Origin: a virus
Strand: one strand, 5' to 3'
IMG/VR virus record: IMGVR_UViG_3300031612_000690
Location: 1-30,753 of that record
DNA: 30,753 nt
Shown here piece by piece: positions 1,771 to 29,161 of this stretch. The number at the start of each line of letters is the position of its first letter. The first letter of the stretch is position 1. A program made the position numbers and the translations under genes. Under the pieces are notes generated by a model that searched no databases, was not told the DNA's origin, and saw nothing but the letters and a program-made list of their open reading frames with translations.

Positions 1771-2093
1771 TTGTATTCTATTTTATCCTCTGCGCCTACA
1801 CTGGGTGTCTTGACGCATACTATAGTTGTGGGTTCTAAAAATTCCACATTGCATATCTCGTCTGGGCCGTATATAAATATATCATTCGGTCCTAGTACTT
1901 CTCCATTCGCAATCATGCTTCCACTTATTATAACGTTATACTCTGTAGCTGTCAACTGGTAATGTGGAACTACTAGTTCGCCTCTAGCATGATGTTTGAT
2001 ACCCAGCTCGAACTCTTCTGTTTTAATTAGTGCAGGATCAAAGTTACCAAAGATCCATCCGCCCGTAAAGTTTTTTAAGTTATTTGTTTGCAT
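1767..2093 (-). CDS. Small cupin-like protein
   Basis: A 108-residue protein when started at the ATG at 2093 (residues MQTNN). In-frame codons extend upstream to 2153, with another ATG at 2111, but the late promoter box at 2099-2106 lies between those starts and 2093, so 2093 is preferred. The body has the spacing of a single-domain cupin: 'IKHHARGE' and a downstream 'GPNDIFIYGPDEI' turn, which resemble the two cupin half-motifs. Canonical metal ligands are only partly recognisable. It is the first gene of the nucleotidyltransferase/HAD/GDPD cassette. A sugar isomerase or epimerase role, or a sensor or binding protein, would fit; I cannot choose between them. Confidence 0.6.
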   Translation of the reverse strand: MQTNNLKNFTGGWIFGNFDPALIKTEEFELGIKHHARGELVVPHYQLTATEYNVIISGSMIANGEVLGPNDIFIYGPDEICNVEFLEPTTIVCVKTPSVGAEDKIEYK

Positions 2094-2098
2094 AGTAC

Positions 2099-2106
2099 TA
2101 TTTATA
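2099..2106 (-). promoter_or_regulatory. T4-type late promoter box for the cupin cassette
   Basis: The minus strand reads TATAAATA, the exact T4 late promoter -10 consensus, followed by GTACT and then the ATG at 2093. In T4 the box covers about -13 to -6, so +1 would fall on the A of the start codon. No Shine-Dalgarno can fit, which predicts a leaderless transcript. Confidence 0.7.
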
Positions 2107-2116
2107 TTCATTATTA

Positions 2117-2124
2117 GATAAATA
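2117..2124 (+). promoter_or_regulatory. Possible late promoter for the plus-strand small genes
   Basis: GATAAATA differs from the TATAAATA late box by one base. Transcription would start near 2130, giving a leader of about 22 nt that carries the AAAGGAG ribosome binding site at 2137-2143. It stands back to back with the minus-strand box at 2099-2106. Confidence 0.45.
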
Positions 2125-2151
2125 TATGTATAAACCAAAGGAGACAGTACC

Positions 2152-2439
2152 ATGGCAATAACAAAAGTATATACATTTACAAATGATGACGGTGTTCAAT
2201 ACACTGACGTAGCAGACTGGCTAGCCGCTTACAATCCACCTCAAATAGGTGAGGGTTTCGCAGTTGACGCACCAGTAGGCATTACTTGGGTTTACGCATT
2301 AGCGTCAGCTACAAGTGTTACAAGAACAATGACATTCGCAGACCAAGCAACATTTGATGCATGGAATGGCGATGGGGTGACACCAGTTGGTACACCATTT
2401 ACATTTAATAATGTAACTAAAGCCGCACCAGCGGAATAA
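2152..2439 (+). CDS. Small protein of unknown function (95 aa)
   Basis: A 95-residue acidic protein that I do not recognise. It starts at an ATG 8 nt after a strong AAAGGAG site, which makes it a convincing gene despite its size. It has no cysteine, no signal peptide and no membrane segment. The middle is rich in Val, Thr and Ala; the segment 'TRTMTFADQATFDAW' looks like an amphipathic strand-helix pair. It is one of only three plus-strand genes in the window, followed 15 nt later by a second small gene, and the pair is flanked by a radical SAM gene on the opposite strand. Possible roles are a minor virion or decoration protein, or a substrate of the neighbouring enzymes. Neither is shown by the sequence. 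Confidence 0.75.
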   Translation: MAITKVYTFTNDDGVQYTDVADWLAAYNPPQIGEGFAVDAPVGITWVYALASATSVTRTMTFADQATFDAWNGDGVTPVGTPFTFNNVTKAAPAE

Positions 2440-2454
2440 TAAGGAGAGCATAGA

Positions 2455-2787
2455 ATGGCACAAACACAAACTATTACTATCGCCGGTGTTAAAGGTAACT
2501 TTGCTCATGCAAACGGACCATTCATGGCAATAGCAGAAATTATGACAGCTTCATTTCCAGGTAAGGAAGTGCAGTCAAGCATGACGTATATTGGAGAAGC
2601 AATAACAGCTGGCACAGTTACACGTGTTGAATCGTTTAATAACACAACTAAGATTTATAAAATTATTAGAACTTGGACTGACGCAGGTTGGACTACGTAT
2701 GATGATCATAAAGTTAACACAGCCGCAGTTACTGCCGCTATTGAAACTGCAGGTTACACAGTTACTAACCAAAACATCAGCGGTTAA
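2455..2787 (+). CDS. Small protein of unknown function (110 aa)
   Basis: A 110-residue protein that I do not recognise, starting after an AAGGAG site in the short gap behind the 95-residue gene, so the two are probably one transcript. It has no cysteine, signal peptide or membrane segment. A segment 'GTVTRVESFNN' is faintly like 'TSVTRTMTFAD' of its neighbour, so the two may share a fold, but this is weak. The C-terminus ends 'TNQNISG'. Its stop at 2785-2787 directly abuts the stop of the convergent radical SAM gene at 2788, leaving no room for a terminator between them. A role as virion component or enzyme substrate is a guess. Confidence 0.75.
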   Translation: MAQTQTITIAGVKGNFAHANGPFMAIAEIMTASFPGKEVQSSMTYIGEAITAGTVTRVESFNNTTKIYKIIRTWTDAGWTTYDDHKVNTAAVTAAIETAGYTVTNQNISG

Positions 2788-3717
2788 TTAATAACCACCT
2801 TCGTTTAACTTAACGTGTTCAAAGAATGGCGCCACTCGAAAGTCTGGCGTCAGTCTACCCCTTCTGAAACTGTTTGGACTTGGAATTTGTTCTAGGTTAT
2901 CAGTATCCCAATTAGCGATCTTAATCCATATACCACTTCTGTTTAGAGGCTTGCCCTCTGCATTTGGATCTAATGGAAACATAAAACTATCTGGTTCTAC
3001 ATCTAGAGTATCTATGATTGGTTTGTTTCTCCAGTGCTGTAAGTAGTCCCAACTAACTCCCATTTGATCAACACACAGTTGCATTAAGTCTTCCAACTTA
3101 ACATTACCTTCTGCATCATTCATATAGCGTCCTAGTTGACCTACGTTCTTAATACGTACTATAGCGTTAACTACACCTTTAGCTTTTAATAAGTTTAATA
3201 AACGGCCTGGAGCTTCTTCGTTTAATCCCTTAACAACTATAGTTCCTGTTTGTAATAATATCTTGTTAGCTATTATAGCATCTAATGCCAACAGCTTCTT
3301 TGTAGCACATTCCATTTCGTCTATTGCTAGATACCAATCATCTCTGTCTACTCCATTAAGGCTTAGGTACATATGATTACATCCGTGTGCTTTAAGTTTT
3401 TCAGCATAGCCTTTACGTGCTAACCTCAAACCATTTGTTAATAGTATCTGTCTATGCCCCATGTCTTTAATACGTTGACATATCTCTGGCAAGTCATTAC
3501 GCATAGTAGGCTCTGCACCTATAATACGAATACTAGTTCTAGCTGGAAACCTACTAATAGCATCCAGCATCTTTTCTTTGTCTAGGTCTGGAACATCTCT
3601 ATTAGGTATGTAACAGTTCTTACACATCATGTTACATCGATGCGTGACATCTATGATTACATCATGAAAGTGATTGTCTTCTGGTTCTAGTTCATAGTAG
3701 TTCATATTATCATTCAT
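2788..3717 (-). CDS. Radical SAM enzyme
   Basis: A 309-residue radical SAM protein. The CxxxCxxC cluster motif is Cys28, Cys32, Cys35 ('CNMMCKNC'), and the SAM-contacting GGE-like motif reads 'GAEPT' at 67-71. The core barrel continues through 'ILLTNG' and 'MYLSLNG'. The C-terminal part (about 215-309) has no cysteine-rich SPASM or twitch module, so it carries only the catalytic 4Fe-4S cluster. It is closest in feel to MoaA/SPASM-type enzymes without the auxiliary domain; the reaction is unknown. It starts 5 nt after a late promoter box (3723-3730), which suggests late expression from a leaderless message. It is divergent from the oxygenase-like gene and convergent with two small genes, an arrangement suggesting a modification cassette. 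Confidence 0.88.
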   Translation of the reverse strand: MNDNMNYYELEPEDNHFHDVIIDVTHRCNMMCKNCYIPNRDVPDLDKEKMLDAISRFPARTSIRIIGAEPTMRNDLPEICQRIKDMGHRQILLTNGLRLARKGYAEKLKAHGCNHMYLSLNGVDRDDWYLAIDEMECATKKLLALDAIIANKILLQTGTIVVKGLNEEAPGRLLNLLKAKGVVNAIVRIKNVGQLGRYMNDAEGNVKLEDLMQLCVDQMGVSWDYLQHWRNKPIIDTLDVEPDSFMFPLDPNAEGKPLNRSGIWIKIANWDTDNLEQIPSPNSFRRGRLTPDFRVAPFFEHVKLNEGGY

Positions 3718-3722
3718 AACAG

Positions 3723-3730
3723 TATTTATG
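3723..3730 (-). promoter_or_regulatory. Late promoter box for the radical SAM gene
   Basis: The minus strand reads CATAAATA, one change from TATAAATA, then CTGTT and the ATG at 3717. The 5-nt gap places the predicted +1 on the start codon. Only 4 nt separate it from the opposite-facing box at 3735-3742. Confidence 0.6.
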
Positions 3731-3734
3731 TAAG

Positions 3735-3742
3735 ACTAAATA
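3735..3742 (+). promoter_or_regulatory. Late promoter box for the oxygenase-like gene
   Basis: ACTAAATA keeps the TAAATA core of the late box. It is followed by CTTGT and the ATG at 3748, the same 5-nt gap as the other boxes, and no Shine-Dalgarno is possible between box and start. Confidence 0.5.
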
Positions 3743-3747
3743 CTTGT

Positions 3748-4245
3748 ATGAGAAGAGACTTAAAACAACTCGCACACAAACGTAGACACTATCCAACACA
3801 CAAATTACTAGGAACTATATCAGTTAATGAACCAGAAACCTTTAATGGAGACCTGCACCTTACACTAGATAACAGAACTAGACATGGGTTAGACTTTGAA
3901 TATGCTAAACTAAGCAAGTATAATCAAGCTAGTATAGCTGAAGACCAAGAATGGATTGACAGTTTAACTAGCATTACTGGCGAAGTTAATAGATTAAGAT
4001 GGAGTAAGTTGTGTGCTGAAGAGACATTAGACTGGCATATTGACCCAGCTGACTGGGATAGATTTGTAATTAGTGTTAATGTTAGTAGCATATGTGAACT
4101 AAAAACACACAAAGAACTAATTAGTTTCACTATGAACCCAGGCGAAGTTTGGTATTTAAACAGTTGTTGGTCGCATAGAGTGGTAAACAATAACCCAGTT
4201 GAACGTATTGCACTACTGGGTAACTTTACCCTCCATGATGTTTAA
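3748..4245 (+). CDS. 2-oxoglutarate/Fe(II) oxygenase-like (aspartyl/asparaginyl hydroxylase type)
   Basis: A 165-residue protein with the ligand pattern of the cupin-fold 2OG-Fe(II) oxygenases: His97-x-Asp99 in 'DWHIDPA', the distal His143 in 'WSHRVVNNN', and Arg153 ('ERIALLGNF') placed to bind 2-oxoglutarate. The 'H..VNN...ER..L' spacing is typical of the aspartyl/asparaginyl beta-hydroxylase-like branch, which hydroxylates peptides or small molecules. The start is fixed by a late box 5 nt upstream. Its 3' end overlaps the convergent hydrolase-like gene by 20 bp. It stands in the plus-strand island next to a radical SAM gene, so protein or peptide modification is a reasonable guess. Family call fairly sure; substrate unknown. 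Confidence 0.78.
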   Translation: MRRDLKQLAHKRRHYPTHKLLGTISVNEPETFNGDLHLTLDNRTRHGLDFEYAKLSKYNQASIAEDQEWIDSLTSITGEVNRLRWSKLCAEETLDWHIDPADWDRFVISVNVSSICELKTHKELISFTMNPGEVWYLNSCWSHRVVNNNPVERIALLGNFTLHDV

Positions 4246-5425
4246 GGGTTTCTTCTAAACTAAGTTCCTCAAACACTTCATCTATTTCAGTATTAGGATG
4301 ATCCGCATTTAGAAACGCAAACATACTATATGATTTTGTACTTACTACAGGTGCATATACATCTGTGTACTTAACCATAACATGTTTGATGTTGTCCTTG
4401 GCTCCATGTAGGTATACAAACCTGCCATGTTCTGTTCTTTCATTTTCATCACCCAGCTTAAATAAGAACTGTGTCTTGTGTGGAAGTCTATCTAGTAAAT
4501 CACTGTTTGGATCTATTACATCCATTGCACCCCACTTGCCACCTAACGTTGCAGTTCCATTTAGTTCCATTAGTTTTTTGCTTCTATGGTTAGTTGGATC
4601 AAATATAGTAGCAGTTGTGTATAGTCCATCAGCACGACCAGGGTAGTGACTAGCTGTAGCAATACAGAATGGTGAACCTAGACATTGGCCAAAGTATATA
4701 ACCCTCTTTGTTTTAGGTAAGTACTTCTTAATTAATTCAAATTGCTTCTCTGCTACTGCCTTTGGATCGTTTTCAAATCCAAACTGAAAGGCCTGAGTAG
4801 ATGGAGTTCGCCAACTAAGTATATTACAATTAGCTTTACGCCAAGTAAGCACGTATGGGTTATACCAATCTGCATAGCTTGATATATCAAACCACCAACC
4901 TGCGTCAGTATGATTAATAATAGTTGTTTCACTCATGCTATCTGATATAGCCCAATTGTCTTTGTGTGCAGTAATGTATTTAGGTGCTGGCTTCTGCATC
5001 CACGTTTGTACATGTTCTTCAGTATACCATTTCTTATAACTAGTGCGTTCGTGTAGAACATAGTCTAGACTAAGCAAGTCGCCTTGTATAATCCACATCT
5101 CATCATTAGTGTTATCTAATTTACGAAGTATAAGTTCGTCTTGTGCTAGTACTAATACAGTTGTGTAACATCTTGCACGTTGTATTATACCGTCTGCTGT
5201 TTCCCATAATGTACCTTTGAAAGGACTTGTTATAATTATTATACAGTCCTCTTTAGGAAACACTACTAAATCTTTTATTGCAATGTCGGCCTTCTCAGTT
5301 AACAACACACGCTTAATCATTGTGCTAGGTGTTGGTGGTAGTATATCTGAATCTTTTTGTATAGCTTGGAATCTATATTCCCAAAAGGCAAATTCGTTTT
5401 TGTATTTAAAATCAATTAGTTTCAT
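4226..5425 (-). CDS. Putative alpha/beta-hydrolase-like protein
   Basis: A 399-residue protein without clear full-length relatives in my memory. Residues 241-251 read 'RVIYFGQCLGS', which looks like the strand-elbow-helix of an alpha/beta hydrolase (GxSxG) with Cys248 at the nucleophile position. Later acidic and His residues ('LHGAKD', 'NADHPN', C-terminal 'HHGG') could supply the rest of a triad. The first ~150 residues are of unknown type. It overlaps the preceding gene by 4 bp (5422-5425), so it is translated from the same minus-strand operon, and its end overlaps the convergent oxygenase gene. An acyl-transfer or deacylation step on a glycan would fit the neighbours. The fold assignment is tentative. 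Confidence 0.6.
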   Translation of the reverse strand: MKLIDFKYKNEFAFWEYRFQAIQKDSDILPPTPSTMIKRVLLTEKADIAIKDLVVFPKEDCIIIITSPFKGTLWETADGIIQRARCYTTVLVLAQDELILRKLDNTNDEMWIIQGDLLSLDYVLHERTSYKKWYTEEHVQTWMQKPAPKYITAHKDNWAISDSMSETTIINHTDAGWWFDISSYADWYNPYVLTWRKANCNILSWRTPSTQAFQFGFENDPKAVAEKQFELIKKYLPKTKRVIYFGQCLGSPFCIATASHYPGRADGLYTTATIFDPTNHRSKKLMELNGTATLGGKWGAMDVIDPNSDLLDRLPHKTQFLFKLGDENERTEHGRFVYLHGAKDNIKHVMVKYTDVYAPVVSTKSYSMFAFLNADHPNTEIDEVFEELSLEETLKHHGG

Positions 5426-6300
5426 AGTTCTACTTGTACTAGTGGGTCATTCATTATAATGTCGTGCCACTGTTTCATTGTTAATTTTTCTAAACAATGT
5501 GCATACACAGGTTGTTGACAATAAGAATGTATAGGATCTTTCCATCCTACATAGTCTTGTAAATTATTATCTTTAACAAATGAAGATAATTGCTTATCAA
5601 GTATTTTCCTATCCTCTGCTTCACTATGAGTGAACCTGTTTGGTGTGGCGTCTAATATTGTCTCTGTACTTATACTTAGTTGTGGTCTCAGGTTACAATT
5701 TTTAACTACTTCTACATCGTTGTCAATTGCAGCATGCCAAAGGGTCTTTCCAATTGTAGCATACCCAACATGTAATGTTACTTCTTTTCTCATAGCTACG
5801 GTTGAGTGGCTAAATAATTTTCTTAATTCAGCGTTTATAATTACTCTATCTTTAATATTAAAGTCTCCGATCTGAAACACGCTGTATGCTATTACATTTT
5901 TTTTAAATAATACGTTCTCAAGTTCATGTACTAATACATTAACATCATTAAACAAATGTCCTACTGCATGGTCTTTGCTTTTAATTTTAGTTGCCATATG
6001 ATCAGCTTGAGCTTTTTCTTCTACTATATGAAAGTCTTCATGACAACGATTCAATGTGTCTCTAGTCATCTCTTCTGGTATCACTGGCATCTTGTATCCT
6101 AGCTTAACTAATGCAGCCACCGCTGTTCTAAGTTTAGCTTCAACAGTTACTGAATCAGTAAAAGTATTAAAGCTAGTATGTCCTTGTCTAATATGCTTTT
6201 TAGAACCTTGTATAAGAGTATACATTATCTTGCCTATATTATTATCTACAAATTCAAAAGTTATTTTTCTTCCTGAAGTAGTTATAAGATTCATTTTCAT
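5422..6300 (-). CDS. Protein of unknown function (292 aa) with conserved-looking His/Asn/Glu motifs
   Basis: I do not recognise this 292-residue protein. It contains two helical motifs that look functional: 'NRCHEDFHIVEE' (residues 84-95) and 'FNDVNVLVHELE' (117-128), spaced as if two helices bring His87, His91 and His125 with Glu126 and Glu128 together, perhaps around a metal. I have the impression of similar His/Asn motifs in marine phage proteins, but I cannot name a family. No membrane segment or signal peptide. Its start overlaps the end of the twitch-type radical SAM gene by 4 bp, and its end overlaps the hydrolase-like gene by 4 bp, so it sits in the middle of a coupled enzyme row and may be a partner of the radical SAM enzyme. 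Confidence 0.65.
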   Translation of the reverse strand: MKMNLITTSGRKITFEFVDNNIGKIMYTLIQGSKKHIRQGHTSFNTFTDSVTVEAKLRTAVAALVKLGYKMPVIPEEMTRDTLNRCHEDFHIVEEKAQADHMATKIKSKDHAVGHLFNDVNVLVHELENVLFKKNVIAYSVFQIGDFNIKDRVIINAELRKLFSHSTVAMRKEVTLHVGYATIGKTLWHAAIDNDVEVVKNCNLRPQLSISTETILDATPNRFTHSEAEDRKILDKQLSSFVKDNNLQDYVGWKDPIHSYCQQPVYAHCLEKLTMKQWHDIIMNDPLVQVEL

Positions 6301-7976
6301 TTTGGTGGCCTTGCCAACTCCTTTTCTATATTAAGTCCTGCCTTTGTAGTTAAAGGTACAAGCCTTGCTTTTTGTTTCCGTTTGTAGTCCTCGTAATGTC
6401 CGTCATGACTGTCCATGTTTTCAAGCTCTGCTTCTTCGGCTTTGCATATCTTATAGAAGTCTGCGTACTCTGGAAATGTCTCATGGAAGTTCTTTCCACG
6501 TCTCTTATCGTATTCGTCTATGAACTGAGCAAACCTTGCTCTCTTTAATTTTAATTTAGGATCTTCATGTAGTCCTGTTTCTCTGTTTGCACGTTTGATA
6601 TGTAATATGCAATCAACAATGTTACGTCTTAGCTTACTACATTCGTGTGCTTCAAACTTATTACTTAGATACCAGTCGTGTGTTCCCATGTTACTATACA
6701 TGAAGTCTCCGGCTGGTACAAGAAACTTGTTAAGCAACTCTACATCAATAAGACATGGGTCTAAGAATTGTGGCCATCTAACATAAGGTACGTCAATGCC
6801 TACACGGTTGTGTGTTCTTGTGTTTTCTTCTCCACGTACTGTATAGTTATCGTGACTGGGCAGTGCTCTATCCACTCCTTCGTCTTCTAACCATTTAAAG
6901 AATCCATGATAACTGTACTTTGTTTTAAGTAACAGTACCCATTCTAATAAATCTTTAAAGCTAGTAATACTTAATATATTAAATGCACACATGAATACTA
7001 CACGTGTGTTGCTAGTGTTGTCTAAGAAGTAATGTATGTTCTTAACAAACGTTTTCCAATCCATACCATCACGTATGTAATCGCATCTGTCGCCTGTAGC
7101 TTCAGCACTTGTGTATAGCTCAAACTTCTTAACACAGTTGTTGTCTGTTAGTACTTTAATCTTAGCACAGAATTTCTTCCAAGCACCTGGGCTTGTTGGA
7201 CATGCATTGCTATTAATAGCAAATTCTAATTTAGGGTTAGGGTTAGCAATAAGGAAGTCAATGACTTTGAATGTATCTTTTATTAGTAACGGCTCACCGC
7301 CTGTAATACGAAACGTATGCATATGTTTATATGCTTCTGGAAACCAATTCCAAAATGCTTCAATGTATGGATTGTGATCTCTAGCTAGTATATGTGTTTC
7401 GTTATCTACTATGCTATTAAATGGTTGTCCTAAATTCATTATAGGACCTTGCTTTTTTATTTCTTGTTCCCACTTACTACTAAACGGAGGACCACAATAA
7501 GCACAAGCAAAGTTGCACGTACGACCAAATGATACTTCTACGTAAGTAGGAAATACAAACTCGTCTCCTTTGAGAGATGATATCTTGTCGTGATGTTCAA
7601 AACTAAACGATTCCAAACTTTTAAATACACGATCACTTACACCACCGTTGTCTTCTATGCGCCAACAGAAGTCACACTCAGTAGGACGTTTGCCTGCAAG
7701 CATTTCTTTCCGCTTCATCATTTTAAAAATTGTATTGTGTAATGAACCAGCGTCTTCGGTTAGTTCTTTTAATGGGATTGTATGTGCGTGTGGATGGTGA
7801 CAGCTATGTGTTAGTCCGTTACCCAAGTGCATAGTTACTTGTGTCCACTTAGCTAAACAGAAACCAGGGCCAGTACTGTTGAGTAATGATAGCATGTTCT
7901 GTTGATTGGAATCCGACATTGTAATTGATTCATTCGGATCGCGGTCCCACTCAAAGTCAGCTAACTTTTTGCTCAT
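6297..7976 (-). CDS. Twitch-domain-type radical SAM enzyme
   Basis: A 559-residue radical SAM protein. The catalytic cluster is Cys154, Cys158, Cys161 ('CNFACAYC') and the GGEP motif is at 226-229. Upstream lie four further cysteines, Cys40 ('FCLAKW'), Cys59 ('THSCHHP') and Cys101/Cys104 ('ECDFCW'), set as in proteins annotated as twitch-domain radical SAM, where they are expected to hold an extra iron-sulphur cluster. Such proteins occur in marine phages and bacteria, usually beside glycosyltransferases; the reaction is not known to me. The last ~150 residues are charged and helical. It overlaps the upstream glycosyltransferase by 4 bp and the downstream 292-residue gene by 4 bp. A weak GAGG site precedes its start. 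Confidence 0.87.
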   Translation of the reverse strand: MSKKLADFEWDRDPNESITMSDSNQQNMLSLLNSTGPGFCLAKWTQVTMHLGNGLTHSCHHPHAHTIPLKELTEDAGSLHNTIFKMMKRKEMLAGKRPTECDFCWRIEDNGGVSDRVFKSLESFSFEHHDKISSLKGDEFVFPTYVEVSFGRTCNFACAYCGPPFSSKWEQEIKKQGPIMNLGQPFNSIVDNETHILARDHNPYIEAFWNWFPEAYKHMHTFRITGGEPLLIKDTFKVIDFLIANPNPKLEFAINSNACPTSPGAWKKFCAKIKVLTDNNCVKKFELYTSAEATGDRCDYIRDGMDWKTFVKNIHYFLDNTSNTRVVFMCAFNILSITSFKDLLEWVLLLKTKYSYHGFFKWLEDEGVDRALPSHDNYTVRGEENTRTHNRVGIDVPYVRWPQFLDPCLIDVELLNKFLVPAGDFMYSNMGTHDWYLSNKFEAHECSKLRRNIVDCILHIKRANRETGLHEDPKLKLKRARFAQFIDEYDKRRGKNFHETFPEYADFYKICKAEEAELENMDSHDGHYEDYKRKQKARLVPLTTKAGLNIEKELARPPK

Positions 7977-9947: not shown

Positions 9948-10764
9948 CAAATATTTCTTGTGTAAGGAACTCTTGTTCACCGTAATATAAATTAGTAGAG
10001 ATAGCAAAGTTTTGTATTTTAATCTTTGCACCTTTACTGGCCCAAGTATTTAAACAGTCCGTCCACTTATCCCATACACCTATGTTGCCGTCTTCTAATG
10101 TTACTGGCATGTTTACAATAGTTACAAGGTCTTTGTGTAACAATGGATCATCATGTATGATTACTGTGTTGAGTAGACTATGTATAATGTCTGGACTAAA
10201 CTGTGATGGTTTATGTACTTCCGAAAAGTAATGTGCATATACTTCTCTCCAGTTTTGCATAAACACATCTGCTAGTTTAAAGTAAGCTAGTGCAATGTCA
10301 GTGTCGTGTTTAAAGTAATACATGCTAGAGTATACTTTAGTTAATTTATAATTTATTTCTAATACGTTTGCGTTCTTATTTACTAACGGAGCACCCTTGA
10401 AGTTAGTTGCCCTGTTAAAGAAGCAAATGTCTTTCTGGTCTATTAAGTAGTCCCATGTACTATCGTGATTCTCTTTTACTAAGCTAGCACAGTCAACTAC
10501 CATAGTATGTACATATGGTGTACACCAATATAGTTGCCACTCGTTAGCTCTAGTTGTCTCACTAAATCCATAAGGTAGCTCTATAAGATAATCAAACACT
10601 TCGTGAAAGTGTTCTGGTATTCTGTCTGTGTAGTTAGTTACTAACGAAACGCTTGCTTTTTTATTTTGTAATTTAATACTGTACGCCAATGCTGTAGCTT
10701 GTTCATATTCAAAATCTTGCATTGCTACAATTACGTAGCCTCTGTCTTCAGGTTCTTTAATCAT
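9907..10764 (-). CDS. GT8-like glycosyltransferase, possibly degenerate
   Basis: A 285-residue protein whose architecture parallels its upstream neighbour: 'GYVIVAMQD' first strand, 'VSLVTNYTD' second strand, then an aromatic 'NEWQLYWCTPY' stretch. The GT-A metal site should follow; here it reads 'VVDCAS' (Asp91), so the second Asp of the DxD motif is missing. It may be metal-independent, inactive or a partner subunit of the neighbouring transferase. The start at 10764 has AGGAG 6 nt upstream and lies 8 bp inside the preceding gene, which indicates coupling. Paralogy with the 10757-11659 gene is likely by layout but the two are diverged. Confidence 0.65.
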   Translation of the reverse strand: MIKEPEDRGYVIVAMQDFEYEQATALAYSIKLQNKKASVSLVTNYTDRIPEHFHEVFDYLIELPYGFSETTRANEWQLYWCTPYVHTMVVDCASLVKENHDSTWDYLIDQKDICFFNRATNFKGAPLVNKNANVLEINYKLTKVYSSMYYFKHDTDIALAYFKLADVFMQNWREVYAHYFSEVHKPSQFSPDIIHSLLNTVIIHDDPLLHKDLVTIVNMPVTLEDGNIGVWDKWTDCLNTWASKGAKIKIQNFAISTNLYYGEQEFLTQEIFDEHRNTYLATSKK

Positions 10765-12006: not shown

Positions 12007-12023
12007 AGTTTTCTCCTTTAAGT

Positions 12024-14868: not shown

Positions 14869-15465
14869 TTAAACTCCTGCTCTAATTCTTAGAGTATATA
14901 GTATCTCTAATTTTCTATTTTTACTTTTTTGAATAGGATGAAATATTAAATGCGTTAAGAAGTTACCTGATTCTGTTACTAATGCAATCTCATCAAATAC
15001 AAACTCGCCTGCTGTCTCATAATTACTAGCTGTATCCAAGTTACTTGCATCAGCTGGGTAGTTATAATCTAAAATTACTTTGCATGCTAAATCTGTATAC
15101 GGTTCGTTTGCCGCATCCATAACTGTATGCTCTGTGATAGGTACTTGTAAATGTACGCCACCGTTTGCATTATCAAGGCTTGCGTTATACAACGCTCCAC
15201 TTCCGCCTGCGACTTTAGCTTCTTTATATGTAATGTTTCCACTTGCATCAATGGTTGAACCACCAAATCCAAATGCTAACTTACTAATAACTGAGCTATT
15301 GCCATTAACATCAGTCTTATTAGCTAACGAATTAGCTAGTGCTAACGCAAAGTTTTGAAAGTTAATTGCGTTATATTTGTTAAGCAGAGTCTCATTAGTA
15401 TCAACATCTCTGATGATTACATGACCTTCTACGTTAACTACTGATGTTTCATTCAATGTTTTCAT
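14869..15465 (-). CDS. Small virion protein, baseplate/fibre region
   Basis: A 198-residue protein. The segments 'NFALALANSLANKTD', 'ISKLAFGFGGSTID' and 'FVFDEIALVTESGNFLTHL' belong to a small beta-rich protein type that I know from phage tail and fibre regions, usually annotated only as structural. It follows the giant gene in the place occupied by gp8 and its neighbours in T4, but I do not see clear gp8 similarity. It has its own late promoter box (15485-15492) and, in contrast to several other late genes here, a short leader with AAGGA before the ATG. Function: virion component, exact position unknown. Confidence 0.72.
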   Translation of the reverse strand: MKTLNETSVVNVEGHVIIRDVDTNETLLNKYNAINFQNFALALANSLANKTDVNGNSSVISKLAFGFGGSTIDASGNITYKEAKVAGGSGALYNASLDNANGGVHLQVPITEHTVMDAANEPYTDLACKVILDYNYPADASNLDTASNYETAGEFVFDEIALVTESGNFLTHLIFHPIQKSKNRKLEILYTLRIRAGV

Positions 15466-15484: not shown

Positions 15485-15492
15485 TATTTATG
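15485..15492 (-). promoter_or_regulatory. Late promoter box for the fibre genes
   Basis: The minus strand reads CATAAATA. The predicted +1 at about 15479 gives a 14-nt leader that includes AAGGA, so this late gene has a normal ribosome site. It lies in the gap after the giant gene and should drive the genes at 15465-12771. Confidence 0.6.
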
Positions 15493-18500: not shown

Positions 18501-21500
18501 CAGCAATAGTTGAAGTTGTTGCTGAGTAAGTTGTATTTAATCCCACAGTAGTTCTAGCTGTACCTGCTACTGCTAATGTTACACCTGTGCTTACTAATTT
18601 TAATTTGTTGGCAACGTTACTTGCTGTAACGTTAACTAATGCTGATGTTGCATTAATCTGTGCTACAATCTCAGTAATGTTTAATTGTGCTGGCTGTAGT
18701 TGTAACTCGACTGGTACTGCAATAGTGTGTCCGCCAGTTGCAAATCCTAGTGCCGCATTGCTTGCCGCTGGTGCTATTATTAATACATCACCTACGCCTC
18801 CAGCATATGCTATTTCTAATACATTACTTGCTGTAACTAATGAAGATGTAACACCTGTTACACCGGCTGCATTAATAGCATCTCTAATTCCAGTTGTTGT
18901 TATACCAACTGTTACATGTGTTAATGTAATTACAATAGCTTGTCCGGCTGTTGGTGCTGTAGTGAATGTTATATTTTGTCCACTAAGCGTGTATGCTGTT
19001 GTTGCTGTTCCATTAACGGTAACCGAAGCTATGCTAAATGTACTTCCACTTAATGCTTGTGCAATTGTAAACGTAGCTTGTAGAACTGGATTAAGTGCAG
19101 TTCCATTGTTTACACCTGTAAAGTTTTCAATTACGTTTGCTGGTGTTGAACCAAAGCTAATTGCTGTGCCATTAATTGTAATGCCTTGTCCAGTTACATC
19201 TGCAAATGCAACGTTACCTAAAGTTGAACGCTGTATTGCTGGGCCTGTAACTACTTGAACGTTTGCAGTTTTACTAAAGCCAATGTTAATGTTATCAATT
19301 ACTAATGTTTCGCTTGGCAAAAATGTAGGACTAGTTGCTGTACCATTTGCAATTATTGGTTGGTACTCAGTTGATGTGTTATTAAATGTTACCGAAGTAC
19401 CTGCTATTTCTGCTATAGTTCCGTGTGGGAAGTCTGCTCGTGATGCTCTACTTGTTTCCAATATAGTGGCTGTTGTTTCTGTTAAGCCTGTAAAGTTCAC
19501 ACTACATTTCCAAAGCTGTCCTTGGTGTCTTACTTGCTCACCTTTTTTATAACTTGTATAATTATTCCAAGTAGGTACGAGTGCGTAAGGCTCTGTCTTC
19601 TCAAACACAGATGAAATATCATCTGCGGATAGTATTCTATATTTAACTTCATGGTCTAACGCGGCGCCACCTGTTAGTATAAAGTTCCAATCATATGTAA
19701 AGTCTTTTGTATCAAAAGTTATTGCTTTGTTATTAATAATACGCTCTGGTGCTGTGTATGTTACTCCAGCCTTCGCGCCGCCTGCTGGTGTATCTTGTGT
19801 AGAGATACATTGTGGCGATGCAACTAAATCTGAAGAACGTAATTCTATTTCTAATACTTCTTCTAAGTCATTATTTCCTAATTCACTTTGTCTAAACATG
19901 TACTGATCATATGCGTTCAGTTTTGTAATGCCTTCGTCAACTATTGATGCTCTATTAAATCTATCAATTGATGCTGTAGTACCTTGTTGCTTAATTGATC
20001 CTTGATGGAACTTAGTAAGTACATTCTTATTAATACCTAATCCATCTGCCCATGTCTTATTAACATTTCCTATTGCAAGATCCTTTGATTGAGTAAACGC
20101 ACCATTAAATGAATCCACATCTGTTCTATACATGTCGTCAATGCTTTGTACTGCACTATCAAAGTTTTCTACAATATGATCATCAAACACTAAGTAGCCA
20201 GGAGCAGTTTTAGTTCCGTTCCAATTAGCTGTTCGTTGTCCTCTTAGCACTAAACGCTTTTGTGTTTGGTTTAACACGTCATCATATATTGCAACGCCTA
20301 GTTTAGTTTTATTTTCAAATATCATAACATGATCATACTCAAGTACTGCACTAGTAATGCTACCTATGAACTCTGCATTCTTAGTAGCTACTGTAACAAG
20401 TCCTTTAGATCTGTTAACACTTAGGTCGCTGTCTTGTAATGTTTTGTTGAACATTGTTAATACATCGTTACCATTGGAAGTTAGTTTGTTGTATGGATAT
20501 ACAGTACCGTATAAAGTTTTAAACGATATTGTTCTACCTATCTGTAAAACAAATGTATCTGTGTTGTCTGCTGTAAGAGCCCAGTTAACAAAGTCTGATG
20601 CTGAACTATCTCCATCAAATTCTAATGTGTATCCAAATTTTGTTAGTAAACTAAAGTATCCTCTAACAAAGTTATAAACATCTTGCATCTTCTCAACGGC
20701 TGCACCGTATTCAATTGTGCTAGCTGTTGTTACAAATTTATTATATCTTCTAACTGTTGAGCCTTGTACTGTTACTAATTCATAATCAGTAGTATCTGCA
20801 ATGTTAGGTTCAAAAAAGTTAAACTCTTGTTTGTTGTTACTTAATCCAGAAAGAGTAAATCCTGTTAAAGTCTTTGTAATAAAAATTGCACTAGCTGTTA
20901 CTAATCTAGTTGGTCTGCCTTGATACATATCAATTGTAAAGTCAGCCTTGCCAAATTCAAAGTCGCCTGTTAAACTACTTTCTGCAAACACTTCAAGCAA
21001 TTCTTTACTACTAAAGCCACCTAACTTTTCGTGTAGCTTAGTATCTAGGTTTGTATATAACTGTCCTTGTGACAAATTACTATTTTGATTTCTTAGTATA
21101 AAGTTATACTGTGCCTGTGAAAGACCGTTAGCTACGTATCCAATTCTACCTGTTGTAATTTTAAAATCTATTCCTGCAATATTGGATGCTCCACCTGAGT
21201 AAGAAACTATTGGGCTTCCAGTAAACTTCACGCCTCTGTTTGTAAGACTTAATGCACTAACCTTGCTAGATGCATTTAGTTTAAAGTTTGTTGTAGCTGT
21301 TGTGCTTCCAAAGTCATCAAGTACTATAAAGCTCTCAGTTGCTGATACTGTTGTTGGTGATGCTTGTACTTCAATATTAATAATTGAATTACCATACGTG
21401 TTGCCAGGTACTTTATAAGACTTACTACTTCCAAATCTACCTGCGTTCTGAATTCCTGCATAGCCATTGTTGTGTATGCCTGGTTGGAAGAATGCACTCC

Positions 21501-24500: not shown

Positions 24501-25662
24501 AATCCCACATAGCAGTATCAAATGTTTCTGCTCTTGCTATCATTGCACGTTCAGCTAGTGTTGCGTCAGACGCAATAGCAAGTGTGTACTTGTCATTAAC
24601 ACTATCATATGTTGCTACTATTACTTTCTTAATACTAAGATTGCCAGTAGTAGCATCACGTTTAGTTACGTAAATAGATTCTGAGTCATCGAGAGTTGCA
24701 TCAACCCATCCTGTTCCTGTGAACTTAACTAACACGTTTTCATTATACAATGACTTATTAGATTCTACATCTTCAAATATAAAGCCATCAAAAACCGGTA
24801 ACCTATCTGCTATAGGATCTGCATTATATGCAGTAAGTAATGCTCCGTAATTTCTTTTTCCAAACGGTGCCAGCCAGTATTTGTTATTTGTATTAGGTGT
24901 AACAGAATGTACTTTGCTGTTATCCCAAATACCATCATTGGCTTGTGTATGTTTTGTAACACTGTTATAAACTCTTATTTGATTAAAATCAATATAAAGT
25001 TCAAACCTATGTTCACCGTTTCCTTCACCTGTACCTAATACAATATATGTACTTCCTCTACATGCTACATCGTAGCCTGAGCCAACAAACTTAATTAACA
25101 TATTATTTTCTAATACAATTGTATTAGTGTCATCTACTAATGTATATACATTGGTATTTTGAATATCAGTTAATGGATTCTTGCTTGTGCCTGTGTAGAT
25201 ACTAGTATAAATTGGAAGCTCTTCAACCCAATAGTAATTATTAAAGTTAATAAACTTATCAATATTAAAAGGCGGGTTATAAGAAAATGCATTAGACGAG
25301 TATGCTGAGTTATAGTTGTACTCATTAAAGTTTGCATTCAACGAGTGTACTACATCGTCATATGTAATCTTGTTTGTTATAGCTCCAGTGTTATCATAAG
25401 ATATAATACCAGGCGTTAATGAAGTTGATTTTCTTAGTTTAACTTCTGTAACTGGGTCAACATATGAGTCATGTGCTTGAGCTTCTGAGCCATGTCTACT
25501 ACCTATGTATCCATCAACTTGGTCCAATGGTCCTTTTGAAACCATTTGATCTAATGTACTATCAAGCCAACTATTATTTAATTCAGTTTGGAATACTTGA
25601 GGTAAAAACTTCTTTGTTTTGATACTGCGGACCTTTGATGAACCTGCTTTTTTATTCGCCAT
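15511..25662 (-). CDS. Giant baseplate/virion structural protein in the gp7 position
   Basis: One uninterrupted frame of 3383 residues, about three times T4 gp7 (1032 aa). It follows gp6 with a 4-base gap, the position of the baseplate wedge protein gp7 in T4. The N-terminal ~150 residues ('SWLDSTLDQMVSKGPLDQV', 'FINFNNYYWVEE') are of a type I know from large structural proteins of marine myoviruses. Near the C-terminus is 'GYIQDVKPFHTKI' and a module with 'TLYINGELITYTKVD' (about 3270-3310) seen in many virion proteins. Residues about 2195-2455 hold a Thr/Ala/Gly/Asn-rich block with hook-IN-like repeats. AGGAAC precedes the ATG. I see no enzymatic motif. Homology to gp7 itself is inferred from order, not from sequence identity. 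Confidence 0.8.
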   Translation of the reverse strand: MANKKAGSSKVRSIKTKKFLPQVFQTELNNSWLDSTLDQMVSKGPLDQVDGYIGSRHGSEAQAHDSYVDPVTEVKLRKSTSLTPGIISYDNTGAITNKITYDDVVHSLNANFNEYNYNSAYSSNAFSYNPPFNIDKFINFNNYYWVEELPIYTSIYTGTSKNPLTDIQNTNVYTLVDDTNTIVLENNMLIKFVGSGYDVACRGSTYIVLGTGEGNGEHRFELYIDFNQIRVYNSVTKHTQANDGIWDNSKVHSVTPNTNNKYWLAPFGKRNYGALLTAYNADPIADRLPVFDGFIFEDVESNKSLYNENVLVKFTGTGWVDATLDDSESIYVTKRDATTGNLSIKKVIVATYDSVNDKYTLAIASDATLAERAMIARAETFDTAMWDWMLPVEPLKDYLLIEKHDVFNTAWSRANHWVNISAINKLKSIMPFQNFDNIITTKRKAIRPIIEYTARIDLWNHARHVNPVSLGTIDFGVKTGDVLSAIPVGSTYVYVDNSDTKVYTQAATPTSVTLAENNTMTIKAVLDNTLSAWVNADVYYTNSTITLAQQKTKINQYPLYKFYDHTGKLLSDIAGTNFKGEKIFGYKPGKGAVDTELGMKLSYKDSLKGAEYQFQNFILTTRYKANFTQAENAKLDYHQNLTGYSLYKKRNVLEGVYNKSDLNFGAKETVQYKITNPDTDLVIPYGHGKWRPHQEEFNVHHIAGKLAVTRRNVSDGTAITFTGTREYNIGYSHIIKFVNSTTDALTFIAPGGIDIEANPSHANNPDITIQRFGDVVKIETGSSSIGGTFDVRAGSSRIGSFNISNEWDANYFDITLNGKRIKDALVTVTGSSITIDETALTADDLVDFTWNSNKQNNNVKNYSYPQVTQHNVHNKVIKTFTISETIDHWADKLNANPSFDRNTFGENNYGSITHNRSTGGTLFLHDDIAVMNDICYSDEKLDVTGSLIEQAGDWDAFRERFKAQAKRLYSVTAYPSVQELTTATLTALLRNKRTSKLHSDSNMLFNSEDALQTFTITDTSVKEFETKWTFNGDVNIRDHVYVYLTESDGTNTYKRILRKDIDYTQLGNAITILLTYNTTVTPVLEVVYNQMDSECYVPASLVKLGLAYGTQPVVSNNILYTHDGVEIVLKANADLTNPNNSSLFDPVNAALFELETRVYAGLVKEDTTYDKTNTSSYYNFLPTQASATWYSLELLNNYLEKHFKHWAELKQKGSLNQANQYVANDNTTWNYSTIPLGFNYSNATPGHYKGVYVHLFGTATPDLTPWHMLGHSFKPTWWDANYSWVTGSKRTALLSALKNGLVSDPSGTPTHDIVFARPHWDFATKSPVTGSGTLEDLTTVIGTPANVDASSAFKFGDWSSEEYEWRVSPQGQAAGVDAIIKLNPARAWSAFFQPGIHNNGYAGIQNAGRFGSSKSYKVPGNTYGNSIINIEVQASPTTVSATESFIVLDDFGSTTATTNFKLNASSKVSALSLTNRGVKFTGSPIVSYSGGASNIAGIDFKITTGRIGYVANGLSQAQYNFILRNQNSNLSQGQLYTNLDTKLHEKLGGFSSKELLEVFAESSLTGDFEFGKADFTIDMYQGRPTRLVTASAIFITKTLTGFTLSGLSNNKQEFNFFEPNIADTTDYELVTVQGSTVRRYNKFVTTASTIEYGAAVEKMQDVYNFVRGYFSLLTKFGYTLEFDGDSSASDFVNWALTADNTDTFVLQIGRTISFKTLYGTVYPYNKLTSNGNDVLTMFNKTLQDSDLSVNRSKGLVTVATKNAEFIGSITSAVLEYDHVMIFENKTKLGVAIYDDVLNQTQKRLVLRGQRTANWNGTKTAPGYLVFDDHIVENFDSAVQSIDDMYRTDVDSFNGAFTQSKDLAIGNVNKTWADGLGINKNVLTKFHQGSIKQQGTTASIDRFNRASIVDEGITKLNAYDQYMFRQSELGNNDLEEVLEIELRSSDLVASPQCISTQDTPAGGAKAGVTYTAPERIINNKAITFDTKDFTYDWNFILTGGAALDHEVKYRILSADDISSVFEKTEPYALVPTWNNYTSYKKGEQVRHQGQLWKCSVNFTGLTETTATILETSRASRADFPHGTIAEIAGTSVTFNNTSTEYQPIIANGTATSPTFLPSETLVIDNINIGFSKTANVQVVTGPAIQRSTLGNVAFADVTGQGITINGTAISFGSTPANVIENFTGVNNGTALNPVLQATFTIAQALSGSTFSIASVTVNGTATTAYTLSGQNITFTTAPTAGQAIVITLTHVTVGITTTGIRDAINAAGVTGVTSSLVTASNVLEIAYAGGVGDVLIIAPAASNAALGFATGGHTIAVPVELQLQPAQLNITEIVAQINATSALVNVTASNVANKLKLVSTGVTLAVAGTARTTVGLNTTYSATTSTIAVPTVRSDAVTLIQAAITAAGNTEVTIATVGNNIIISSTGTSLTLGDTTFNTLAGFDTGTKIATDGGVVNTFDVTDFGSTAQTSDNALYNILVTDDSAFEVASRGSITTKFFGWNVLQVTQRPAPLYSYTTATDGCGICAGTSTLDGNDAEVTTNVAHGLQVGDFVQLLNTTTTPNIDGIHKVTKVGTLDTVFYIDEFIEMCGNAVSIMPLVTTRFTDEVQRASAIALASWNLPAKTLIYEDSNASVLGTYVSNITGSTVTAKRQTLSRPTNKDIDNITVYNYKKNKSNIILESFDPLRHIIPGIAKQNVDIINVSDNAIYNTSSDTGQSVDDNNAWGTEQLGTRWWDTSKARYYDYDQGGLEYRVSKWGELYPGSEIVVWEWIKSSVAPDDYAESVLFGKEIYGVPATGEAYAVYDKLTAELVYHYTLTTQFNSANGSNDDVYYYWVKNKTTVQDERTLSAFDVANIIRSPSTNGVSWFAALTANEFIVDNISYYVDNKSTVLQINKAPNKFKSHNEWTLIAKGYDNIPGYYIQGMKYSLAGWNSVKARIPFNTLHKFNKYGDSLDIGQSWFNNINEGRRNTAEAINYELRSVLVDDAYTNKWDRTLVANNFPTTLWKWIDHKPTRYNGTFNYTTTATSVADLINIDRDFHKVVKIKLFNVEADLDRSEIYAYNDEKAEWVLVLKKNSSIEFSVADLCPEMGYDKSAEGTRTTANGTVIKGGYWDSGKWDVDNVAEYWQTLITALDEDIFIGRNKLKMNKLFFGVVDYVLSSLPQTNWIRKTTYIKVEIASEFNTTARKYKRNKIHNITGYIQDVKPFHTKISSTINSFATTEKVKASVTESLSIAVQTNTSGSTYDTNTRTFVHLQDNTGNVIAYALASAKETTLASELGLNDTKIIVTSTAGITATGTLYINGELITYTKVDATTVTVIARNVNNTFRAVGALGDSITQVDTNQLTYTNSPATLQYNVVGSTILNSPSSTAAAELSAISKGIQL
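18290..18900 (-). repeat. Three ~70-residue FliD/hook-IN-like repeats within the giant protein
   Basis: Translated on the minus strand, three units begin near residues 2258, 2330 and 2397: 'IRDAINAAGVTGVTSSL', 'IVAQINATSALVNVTASN', 'LIQAAITAAGNTEVTIA'. Each is followed by a short strand pair such as 'NKLKLVSTGVTLAVAG' or 'NNIIISSTGTSLTLGD' and then by 'LGFATG', 'VGLNTT' or 'LAGFDTG'. The pattern is that of flagellin/hook 'IN' modules. The units are diverged, with no long DNA identity, so they are old. Confidence 0.6.
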
Positions 25663-25666
25663 TTAA

Positions 25667-28600
25667 TTATGTTCCTGCTCTAATATTTTCGTCTGTGATG
25701 TTTTGAATAATATCAATATCGTTAACTGTTACGTCTGCTATAATAAGTTCGTCTAGCTCTGGTGTGTACTCAAACAAATCACCAAACGTTGTTCCTGTGC
25801 CTTGCGGTACAATAACAAAACTACTTAGCACACCTACAAGTTGCTTGTGTACGTAAGCCGCTAATTCTGTAAAGTAAAAAGTTTCTCCAAAGTCCCAAAC
25901 ACTTGAACTAAAGAATTCATCTATAGCTTTAACTGTTCTTGTTTTCATATCACTGTCTGTTACATTACATCCAACAACTTTAATTATTCTAAACTTTGCT
26001 TTTAATTCTGCTGATGCCTTGGCTCCAAATATTGGTTTATACTTAACTGGTTTAAACACAATCGTGTCACTCATTGCTTTCTTTTCTCCAGTAGCTGAAA
26101 ACTGTGTTCCAAGTTCGTAGCTAGTAGGAGGCTTAGGCATTATAGCTAGCGTTCCTTTTAACCAATTTTTATAACTAGTATCATATGATGTTGTTAGTGC
26201 GTATACATCAATAATATTTGTAAAGCTAGGATCAACTACTTGATTGTCTGACGCAATATGTTGCCAGTCAAAGTTTAAACTACTTCTGCCATCGTAATCA
26301 ACAGTATTAATTTTTACGCTGTTAAGTCCAACCGTCTCAAAAAATATATCTGGGTTATCTGGCCTACTATCAGCATTGCTATCTATAAGAGATAGTCTGT
26401 AATTATTATCAGTAGCAGTATCATAACCATATACATAAAAATCACCAATGTCAACAATATCATTTCCATCTACGCCAATAGCAGTAATTTTATCACGTGT
26501 AGCCTTTTTAGTATAAGAACTAATTTCATATTCGTTCTGTATGTTTCCTAAACGTACTGTAGCACTTGTAAAATTAAATCTTAATGTTCTAATGTAGATA
26601 TCAAATGATGATCCGGTAAACTTGAAATTTAGAATCCAACTATCATCTGCTAAACTAAATGTTGTAGGATAAGCTACTGTTGGTACTACCGCTGTGCCTG
26701 TGGCTCCAATAATATCCCAACTCTTATTCTTGTAATTATATTTTATACTAAAGTCACGCTGTGACTCTAAGTAATATTTAATAACATCTTTTTCTCTTTT
26801 AATAAATCTTCTCGACAAGCCAGGGTATACAACATTAACTGTTGAACCATTTGGAATGTCAGTATCTAATATAATAGCACCTGTTCCATCTGTACGCTTA
26901 CCTGTTGGAGCACCAACTGTTGTTTCCATACCTAAGCCGTTTGCAAAAATATCTACTACCTTAGCCCATTTGGTTTTACTGTTGCTTGTAAATTTAATTA
27001 AAGCACCTGGTGTAATGTATTTCATGTATGTACTTGCTGTTGAACCAACACGTGCTATTTGAGTTGAAGTGTCTGTAATGTAACCAGTTAGTATTCCACT
27101 AGTTGATTCACTTGGGCTTTGCCAAACAAATGAATCTGGTGTGTAAGATTCTTCTCCTCTTAACGCTTCAAATGCTGTTTTATATTTTGTATAATATAAG
27201 TTAATAAATTCGTCATTGTCTAAAATATGTTTAACATGTTTCTCAAATGTTTGTGTAGAAGAGTCTGTTGCATTACTAGCAGTAGACATAACTTTTTCTG
27301 ATGCATATATTGTAGCATCTTTTCCACTTAGAAATAAATCTGAGTATGTACCTGTTGGGTCTGTAAACTTTGAATATCTACTATGTCCACTAAATGTTCT
27401 GTTAACACTCTTAAGTTTAAGGATGCCGCCTTGTTGACTAGATAACAATGTGTTATAGTCTTGGGCTGTAATCATTCTATCTTGACTAGCATAATTTTTA
27501 GGAGCATTTTCTCTAACGCTATCCATTGTCTCACTTGATGTTGCATTAACAATTGCTTGTTTTAATTGTAATGATAAAATAGCTGTGTATGTATTTCCAT
27601 CTAATCCTGTGTAACCAATGTTTACTTTTTTATTTGTTAAGTCATCTGGTCTAACAACATATGTAGTATTAGCACTTGTTCTGTACCAAACTCTAATAGT
27701 ACCTGTTGGAACATTACCAAATTCTTTTGATGGGAACATAATTGAGATTGAATTATTTGTTCTAGTCTTTACACTGTATACATCACGTATACCTGATGCT
27801 AAGTTGTTATAAATTACATTACTGTTTACGTCTGTAACTTTAGACCAATTCTTAACAACGTTACCTGTTGCATTAACATTCTGTACCCATACGTCTGTGT
27901 TGTTTATATTTTCTGCGGTAACATCTAATACTGCACTGTCAATTGGAGTGTCAATAACAAAGTCTTGGAATGATAATGCACCTTGCTTAACACCCATAAA
28001 GAATCCAGTATTAACACTGCTAATACCCTTGCCATCATTTTTAAAATATACTCCGACACTGCCTATTGGGCTAGGTGCCTTTTCCATAAATGCTTTATTG
28101 ACACTATCAAATTCACTGCTAATGATATTGTATGTAGCAGTCTTACCTGATACAATTCCCTGAACATCAAACTTAATTTGATTAGGCGTATTGTTTATAT
28201 CATAGAATTCTGATTGTATTCCATTTACAATAGAACTTTTCTTTGGACTACCATATTGATTACTGTTTTCTAATGTAGCATTAAGTACTGTAATAAAATC
28301 ATCTATGTTGCTTACATTGTTTGAAGCTTCATATTTTATTTCTACTCCACCTAAGCTAGTTCCTGCACTACCAATAACGGATTCGTTTGTTTTAATTCCT
28401 ATAACTTTCATCTCACCGTATGCTGGCACATTACGTCTGGGTTGATATCCTAAAAACTCTGCTAGTTTAAAAACTGAATCTTGTTTTCGGGCTGTAGTTA
28501 AAAAATTGTTTCTTGCATTAAGGTCTACCCTGTATGCCAAGTTATGTCCAAACTGTGCAACTACATCTAGTAGCGATACAAATTCTGCTGACTCTACCCA

Positions 28601-28762
28601 GTCATTATAGTTTTCTGGGTATGTGTTGCGAACATAAGCAACCATTGCAGTTCTAATAGTATCGTAATCAAATGCTTGGAAGTTAGCATTAACATACGAC
28701 TCGTATATAACTGTATAGTCCTCTGCCGCAAAAAGTTTATTTTGTCTTGTTTTTTGTGCCAT
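25667..28762 (-). CDS. gp6: Baseplate wedge protein gp6
   Basis: A 1031-residue member of the T4 gp6 / baseplate J-like family, which forms the inner ring of the baseplate wedge and drives sheath contraction together with gp53 and gp25. The N-terminal block 'NDWVESAEFVSLLDVVAQFG', 'NLAYRVDLNARNNFLTTA' and 'LAEFLGYQPRRNVPAYGEM' (about residues 58-120) is characteristic. The central core includes 'ENAPKNYASQDRMITAQDY', another baseplate J-type hallmark. It is longer than T4 gp6 (660 aa), with extra beta-rich material in the middle. It starts 2 bases after the gp25 stop and is followed 4 bases later by the giant gene, so gp25-gp6-giant form a single late operon. No strong ribosome site is seen before its ATG, which fits coupling to gp25. 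Confidence 0.93.
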   Translation of the reverse strand: MAQKTRQNKLFAAEDYTVIYESYVNANFQAFDYDTIRTAMVAYVRNTYPENYNDWVESAEFVSLLDVVAQFGHNLAYRVDLNARNNFLTTARKQDSVFKLAEFLGYQPRRNVPAYGEMKVIGIKTNESVIGSAGTSLGGVEIKYEASNNVSNIDDFITVLNATLENSNQYGSPKKSSIVNGIQSEFYDINNTPNQIKFDVQGIVSGKTATYNIISSEFDSVNKAFMEKAPSPIGSVGVYFKNDGKGISSVNTGFFMGVKQGALSFQDFVIDTPIDSAVLDVTAENINNTDVWVQNVNATGNVVKNWSKVTDVNSNVIYNNLASGIRDVYSVKTRTNNSISIMFPSKEFGNVPTGTIRVWYRTSANTTYVVRPDDLTNKKVNIGYTGLDGNTYTAILSLQLKQAIVNATSSETMDSVRENAPKNYASQDRMITAQDYNTLLSSQQGGILKLKSVNRTFSGHSRYSKFTDPTGTYSDLFLSGKDATIYASEKVMSTASNATDSSTQTFEKHVKHILDNDEFINLYYTKYKTAFEALRGEESYTPDSFVWQSPSESTSGILTGYITDTSTQIARVGSTASTYMKYITPGALIKFTSNSKTKWAKVVDIFANGLGMETTVGAPTGKRTDGTGAIILDTDIPNGSTVNVVYPGLSRRFIKREKDVIKYYLESQRDFSIKYNYKNKSWDIIGATGTAVVPTVAYPTTFSLADDSWILNFKFTGSSFDIYIRTLRFNFTSATVRLGNIQNEYEISSYTKKATRDKITAIGVDGNDIVDIGDFYVYGYDTATDNNYRLSLIDSNADSRPDNPDIFFETVGLNSVKINTVDYDGRSSLNFDWQHIASDNQVVDPSFTNIIDVYALTTSYDTSYKNWLKGTLAIMPKPPTSYELGTQFSATGEKKAMSDTIVFKPVKYKPIFGAKASAELKAKFRIIKVVGCNVTDSDMKTRTVKAIDEFFSSSVWDFGETFYFTELAAYVHKQLVGVLSSFVIVPQGTGTTFGDLFEYTPELDELIIADVTVNDIDIIQNITDENIRAGT

Positions 28763-28764
28763 GA

Positions 28765-29148
28765 TTAAAACTCTGCGTCCTGTTCGAATTCTCTATCGAA
28801 CTTTATCTGTAAATCTGTTACAGTTGTAGTGGGTATATACACTAGCTTTACTTTAATAGTAACGCTGTGTTTATCCTGATTAATATCTATATTGGTATCT
28901 TCTACTTCAAAACGTGGATCATAACTAATGACTGCAAAGACTTCCTCTTTGATAGATTCAGTAGTATTAGTATCCAACGGTTCAAACACGTAGTACGGTA
29001 AGTCACAACCAAATGTTGGGTCCGTCCACTTCTCTCCTTTGCGTATTGCAAAGTGATTCAGGAGGTCTCGTTTAGCTAAATCTATACCTAATAGGTTTTT
29101 GCTTGTATATGGCTGTTCTACTGTTGTGTATCCAATTATATTGTTCAT
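28765..29148 (-). CDS. gp25: Baseplate wedge protein gp25
   Basis: A 127-residue gp25/GPW-family protein, close to T4 gp25 in length (132 aa). Family features are the 'DLAKRDLLNHFAIRKGEKW' helix (residues 24-42), the 'TDPTFGCDLPYYVFEPL' segment, and 'FAVISYDPRFEV' followed by C-terminal strands ending 'LQIKFDREFEQ'. In contractile machines gp25 joins gp6 and gp53 in the wedge core and seeds sheath assembly. It is the first gene of the gp25-gp6-giant operon. Its ATG lies 5 nt after the late box CATAAATA, so the message should be leaderless; no Shine-Dalgarno is seen. Confidence 0.93.
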   Translation of the reverse strand: MNNIIGYTTVEQPYTSKNLLGIDLAKRDLLNHFAIRKGEKWTDPTFGCDLPYYVFEPLDTNTTESIKEEVFAVISYDPRFEVEDTNIDINQDKHSVTIKVKLVYIPTTTVTDLQIKFDREFEQDAEF

Positions 29149-29153
29149 ACAAC

Positions 29154-29161
29154 TATTTATG
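29154..29161 (-). promoter_or_regulatory. Late promoter box for gp25-gp6-giant operon
   Basis: The minus strand reads CATAAATA, then GTTGT, then the gp25 ATG at 29148. The 5-nt gap is the same as at the cupin, radical SAM and oxygenase genes. Confidence 0.65.

Follow-up and report, generated by a model that had tools for sequence, protein, structure and literature searches.

The window analysed here is a virus fragment of 30,753 bases from IMG/VR (IMGVR_UViG_3300031612_000690). Its gp6-like protein (25667-28762) has matches in 61 named phage records, those listed being all jumbo T4-like phages and including Atu_ph07, SCTP-2, PA5oct and 121Q, and alongside these about 595 IMG/VR stretches encode relatives; the gene for a 3383-aa protein gave no match by megablast against phages. 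On the minus strand lie a gp25-like baseplate wedge gene (28765-29148; PF04965, 3.9e-08; phrog_261 and phrog_43) preceded by the late promoter box CATAAATA at 29154-29161, a radical SAM gene (2788-3717; PF04055, 1.4e-15) with the same type of box at 3723-3730, and a small gene of 108 aa (1767-2093; phrog_24762, 3.6e-27, residues 2-102 on profile positions 2-102) with the box TATAAATA at 2099-2106. On the plus strand, an Asp/Asn beta-hydroxylase-like (2OG oxygenase-like) gene (3748-4245; PF05118, 0.00049, just below the curated cut-off) follows the box ACTAAATA at 3735-3742. All four boxes (CATAAATA twice, the others once each) are TATAAATA-like, and all four genes are predicted to be leaderless, with +1 at 29148, 3717, 2093 and 3748, respectively. 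The initial annotation had reported these sites before unrelated genes and on both strands, and our inspection bears this out: the boxes at 2099, 3723 and 29154 (minus) and at 3735 (plus) stand exactly 5 nt from the ATG in 4 of 4 cases, the genes have different profile matches, and TAAATA-N5-ATG has no further match in the window. At all four sites an A occupies the sixth position downstream of the box.

The radical SAM and oxygenase-like genes diverge from a segment of 36 bp (3715-3750) with the layout CAT-N5-TATTTA-N8-TAAATA-N5-ATG, which holds both start codons and both boxes. Similarly compact segments, of 32-36 bp including this one, are found at 49981-50012 of the related record G005 and at 18914-18945 of the pelagiphage HTVC008M. 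The window also contains leadered promoters, as had been noted for the genes at 15465 and 2152: the box CATAAATA at 15485-15492 (minus) lies 19 nt before the ATG at 15465, with an AAGGAA ribosome site, and the box GATAAATA at 2117-2124 (plus) lies 27 nt before the ATG at 2152, with an AAGGAG-like site (AAGGAGA).

At three of the four sites the ATG is the first of its open reading frame, the exception being that at 2093, which lies in frame inside a longer ORF that begins at 2153. The true start of this small gene is likely 2093, since the 108-aa product matches phrog_24762 from end to end (its residue 2 falls on profile position 2) and a gene begun at 2153 would run into the plus-strand gene at 2152. 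A Pfam search of the 108-aa product gave no match, and the name cupin is a label of the initial annotation.

A count of TAAATA-N5-ATG against shuffled controls had been proposed as a check of the spacing. For the window itself the excess is modest (4 matches versus 1.19 +/- 1.12 expected, with at least four reached by 3 of 100 shuffles); among ATGs that open ORFs of at least 60 aa there are 4 at spacing 5, versus a mean of 0.11 at other spacings. Because the excess in the window is modest on its own, the decision rests on the relatives, and through these the excess is real. A search of IMG/VR for relatives of the three window genes other than gp25 recovered none, so that conservation could be tested for gp25 alone, and for the other three genes the leaderless call is a prediction from the pattern.

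The gp25 genes of the window's clade were gathered by a protein motif, ignoring the sequence upstream, and TAAATA-N5-ATG was present in all 53 distinct genes obtained. In gp25 genes 54-100% identical to that of the window, the box and the exact 5-nt gap are kept while the letters of the spacer vary (GTTGT, TAAGT, CCTTT, TTAAT and ACTAT among relatives). The N-terminus that follows the ATG is conserved and resembles that of leadered homologues, from which we conclude that the start codon is very likely correct; leadered gp25 genes are found in the cultured jumbo relatives PA5oct, 121Q, RaK2 and Phosso. The idea of a terminator hairpin just before the gp25 box was considered and rejected as not general, since such a hairpin is present in few relatives only and most of the 53 upstream regions fold weakly. 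In record L017 (4452), the frame of a gp25 gene with the conserved leaderless promoter closes after 49 codons, apparently through a frameshift, which may be a sequencing error. Upstream of gp25, the window carries an HNH gene (29182-29727, minus strand) with a TTG start after a longer leader, and its homologue in relatives (L048, L050, L080, L083 and L100) has TAAATA-N5-ATG; this gene may have switched between the leadered and leaderless modes.

The least biased evidence is a scan of IMG/VR for divergent pairs, which was not seeded with any gene. The layout CAT-N5-TATTTA-N4-TAAATA-N5-ATG was found in 82 stretches, versus 14 each when the outer spacing was N6 or N7, a difference of about sixfold. 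Reading frames open on both sides in 48 of the 62 distinct N5 cases, compared with 2 of 10 for N7. The layout enriched in IMG/VR has N4 between the boxes; the divergent pair of the window has N8.

We then consider how far NATAAATA lies from ATGs that begin an ORF of at least 60 aa in 16 clade sequences, namely the window and 15 related records (G002/G011 and G007/G014 are near-duplicates, and G005/G033 overlap). The distribution is bimodal: 28 cases fall at exactly 5 nt, no other distance up to 15 nt has more than 2 and those of 6-15 nt have 0-1 each, and a broad hump follows from 16 to about 36 nt. A Shine-Dalgarno motif occurs in 1 of 25 members of the 5-nt class versus 62 of 82 in the hump. 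The absence of Shine-Dalgarno sites at the 5-nt position, claimed from the window, thus holds in the clade and also in a 517-kb phage described below, where the motif occurs in 1 of 50. The coexistence of two late-promoter modes in the same genomes, a 5-nt class without the motif and a leadered class with it, likewise holds in the clade. Start codons at 5 nt in the clade are ATG in 28 cases, TTG in one and GTG in none, and ATAAATA-N5-ATG opens an ORF of at least 60 aa in 28 of 33 cases in the clade and 37 of 39 in the 517-kb phage, versus 18-22% of all ATGs. The near-absence of distances of 6-15 nt speaks against a tolerated short leader. In the window's clade the leaderless arrangement is a small class, with about one gene per 35 kb, gp25 making up roughly half.

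The published late box of T4, TATAAATA, covers positions -13 to -6 relative to the mapped start of transcription (PMC1524935), a geometry that would put +1 on the A of the ATG at the 5-nt sites, as the initial annotation had predicted. The leadered promoters carry a matching signature: in the clade the sixth base after the box is A in 36, G in 13, T in 16 and C in none (49 of 65 purine), and among the leadered promoters of the pelagi- and methylophages HTVC008M, Mosig and Melnitz, 29 of 36 have A there. A preference for TG after the initiator A was sought in the leadered promoters and none was found, which rules out a promoter consensus that includes the ATG itself; an initiator purine at the predicted place without such a preference indicates that the ATG is there for translation and not as part of the promoter. 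With T4 gp55 as query, a homologue was detected in 13 of the 14 records of clade relatives searched; the matches are weak (E 1e-4 to 1e-8) and lie inside open frames of about 280-350 codons. Homologues of gp55 were also found in HTVC008M, Syn9, Melnitz, P-SSM2, Atu_ph07, Mosig, XacN1 and in records of 121, 126, 146 and 517 kb, with a marginal match in PA5oct.

The strongest case that we found is the 517-kb phage IMGVR_UViG_3300034072_000758 (516,805 bases; L335-L360), with 50 ORFs at 5 nt (Poisson p about 1e-71 against neighbouring spacings) and a further 12 at 4 nt. Its start codons at 5 nt are 50 ATG and 1 TTG, and ten genes of this class that were scanned include terminase, gp25, virion proteins and a tail fibre. 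A 126-kb contig has 36 ORFs at 5 nt (p about 1e-45). When A/T hexamers were compared in this contig and in the 517-kb phage, none gave a stronger signal than TAAATA at 5 nt. Twelve such ORFs occur in HTVC008M; for ten of them the start was compared with the deposited annotation, and the two agree in every case (2OG oxygenase, CsgF, adenylate cyclase, tape measure, DNA end protector, head closure, tail tube cap, gp25, baseplate protein and tail completion). Smaller numbers are seen in Mosig (6), Melnitz (3) and XacN1 (9). The DNA end protector is leaderless by the 5-nt rule in HTVC008M and, judging from similar N-terminal sequence, may also be so in Mosig and Melnitz. XacN1 (L379-L398), a cultured Xanthomonas phage and a possible laboratory model of the arrangement, follows a slightly looser rule with 6 further ORFs at 6 nt; in this phage and in the 517-kb phage the start may vary by one base. 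T4, Syn9 and PA5oct were tested for the 5-nt spacing and showed no excess. This distribution suggests repeated origin or repeated loss. A link to phage-encoded ribosomal protein bS21 was also considered; bS21 genes occur in HTVC008M (91237), Melnitz (34209), PA5oct (170985), SCTP-2 (192508) and Atu_ph07 (489120) but are absent from the clade fragments, so there is no consistent association.

We propose, with high confidence, that these sites are gp55-type late promoters that make leaderless mRNAs, working alongside leadered late promoters in the same genomes. The host RNA polymerase, equipped with the late sigma factor of the phage, would bind to TAAATA at about -11 to -6, melt the DNA and initiate at the purine six bases after the box, which is the A of the start codon. 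The mRNA would then begin 5΄-AUG and be translated without a Shine-Dalgarno site, its terminal AUG being bound presumably by a 70S or IF2-assisted route, as in other leaderless mRNAs, while other late promoters of these genomes, forming a separate class, would give leaders of about 11-31 nt with Shine-Dalgarno sites. The boxes, their fixed spacing and conservation, the missing Shine-Dalgarno sites, the initiator signature and the gp55-like genes of relatives are read directly from the DNA; from these we infer the actual 5΄ ends, the dependence on gp55, the late timing and the leaderless translation.

Other explanations have to be weighed against this proposal. Initiation could take place a few bases upstream or be scattered, giving very short leaders and a translation that is still not driven by Shine-Dalgarno sites. 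T4-like promoters can indeed initiate at neighbouring purines, and the ORFs at 6 nt in XacN1 and at 4 nt in the 517-kb phage fit such a flexibility. However, tolerance of short leaders predicts that spacings of 6-10 nt should be common, and these are almost empty in the clade, while the initiator A stands exactly at the sixth base after the box; we therefore regard this explanation as unlikely. We give still less credit to the idea that the boxes do not drive these genes, which would be transcribed from upstream promoters, the spacing being kept for some other reason, for instance a regulatory site or a sequence context favoured for translation start. The gene order suggests that gp25 lies in clusters open to read-through, but the same motif and spacing precede unrelated genes on both strands and in back-to-back pairs, and the divergent layout with N5 is far commoner than that with N6 or N7. 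Moreover, read-through transcripts would lack a Shine-Dalgarno site too, and T4 and Syn9 do not show the 5-nt spacing, so that this second explanation appears very improbable.

Chance in an A+T-rich genome, or misannotated starts, could account for a pattern such as that of the window, given the few shuffles that equalled it. Against this stand the conservation in every one of the clade's gp25 genes and the p values of the two other phages, and misannotation is contradicted by the conserved N-termini, similar to those of leadered homologues, and by the agreement with deposited HTVC008M starts. As a general account it seems to us extremely improbable; it is refuted for gp25, and for single window genes such as that at 2093 it is possible.

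The initial annotation had considered leaderless translation as a systematic late strategy in T4-like phages. This view is upheld, as a prediction, in the relatives of the window and in other T4-like lineages, and it fails for T4 itself. A wider hypothesis, in which our confidence is somewhat less than even, is that several T4-like lineages, up to a 517-kb genome with about 50 such genes, possess a dedicated leaderless late regulon. Here a phage sigma factor would make 5΄-AUG mRNAs for virion proteins whose synthesis would be independent of Shine-Dalgarno sites, possibly favoured by changes in the ribosomes late in infection, and bidirectional promoters would be reduced to as little as 32 bp including both start codons. 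If true, several T4-like lineages would need leaderless translation in their hosts to assemble their virions, and a box plus 5 nt would be a simple rule for these phages by which late promoters could be located and start codons correctly assigned.

Leaderless mRNAs and T4 late promoters are each well known, and T4 is the textbook case of leadered late genes driven by Shine-Dalgarno sites, a picture in which leaderless mRNAs have no place. What would be new is the systematic union of both. We found no description of leaderless late mRNAs of T4-like phages in the open-access literature, although priority is not established by this; the paper on phage AR9 contains only a remark that phage transcripts are often leaderless. 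In the parts consulted of two studies on related marine phages, late promoters are mentioned and this arrangement was not found, and one of them reports a failed attempt to predict late promoters in pelagimyophages (PMC7029224). The box CTAAATA, present at window position 3735 and at many sites of the 126-kb contig, is the published late box of phage Aeh1, and the portion of its description that we consulted does not mention a leaderless placement (PMC1524935).

With the T4 late promoters (gp55/gp33/gp45) the arrangement shares the box, a gp55 homologue in relatives and a purine start six bases downstream, whereas in T4 itself most boxes stand about 17-35 nt ahead of the ATG and are separated from it by a Shine-Dalgarno site, and no NATAAATA is found at 5 nt. 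With the leaderless mRNAs of bacteria and archaea, such as those of mycobacteria and Sinorhizobium meliloti, it shares the 5΄ AUG, the lack of a Shine-Dalgarno site and the ATG start, but here these features go together with a late promoter of phage type and with virion genes, and the 5΄ ends are predicted. Another close parallel is the pelagimyophage HTVC008M, which has the same TAAATA-N5-ATG at gp25, the end protector, head closure, tape measure and other genes, although it belongs to a different lineage (Kyanoviridae) and has a smaller genome.
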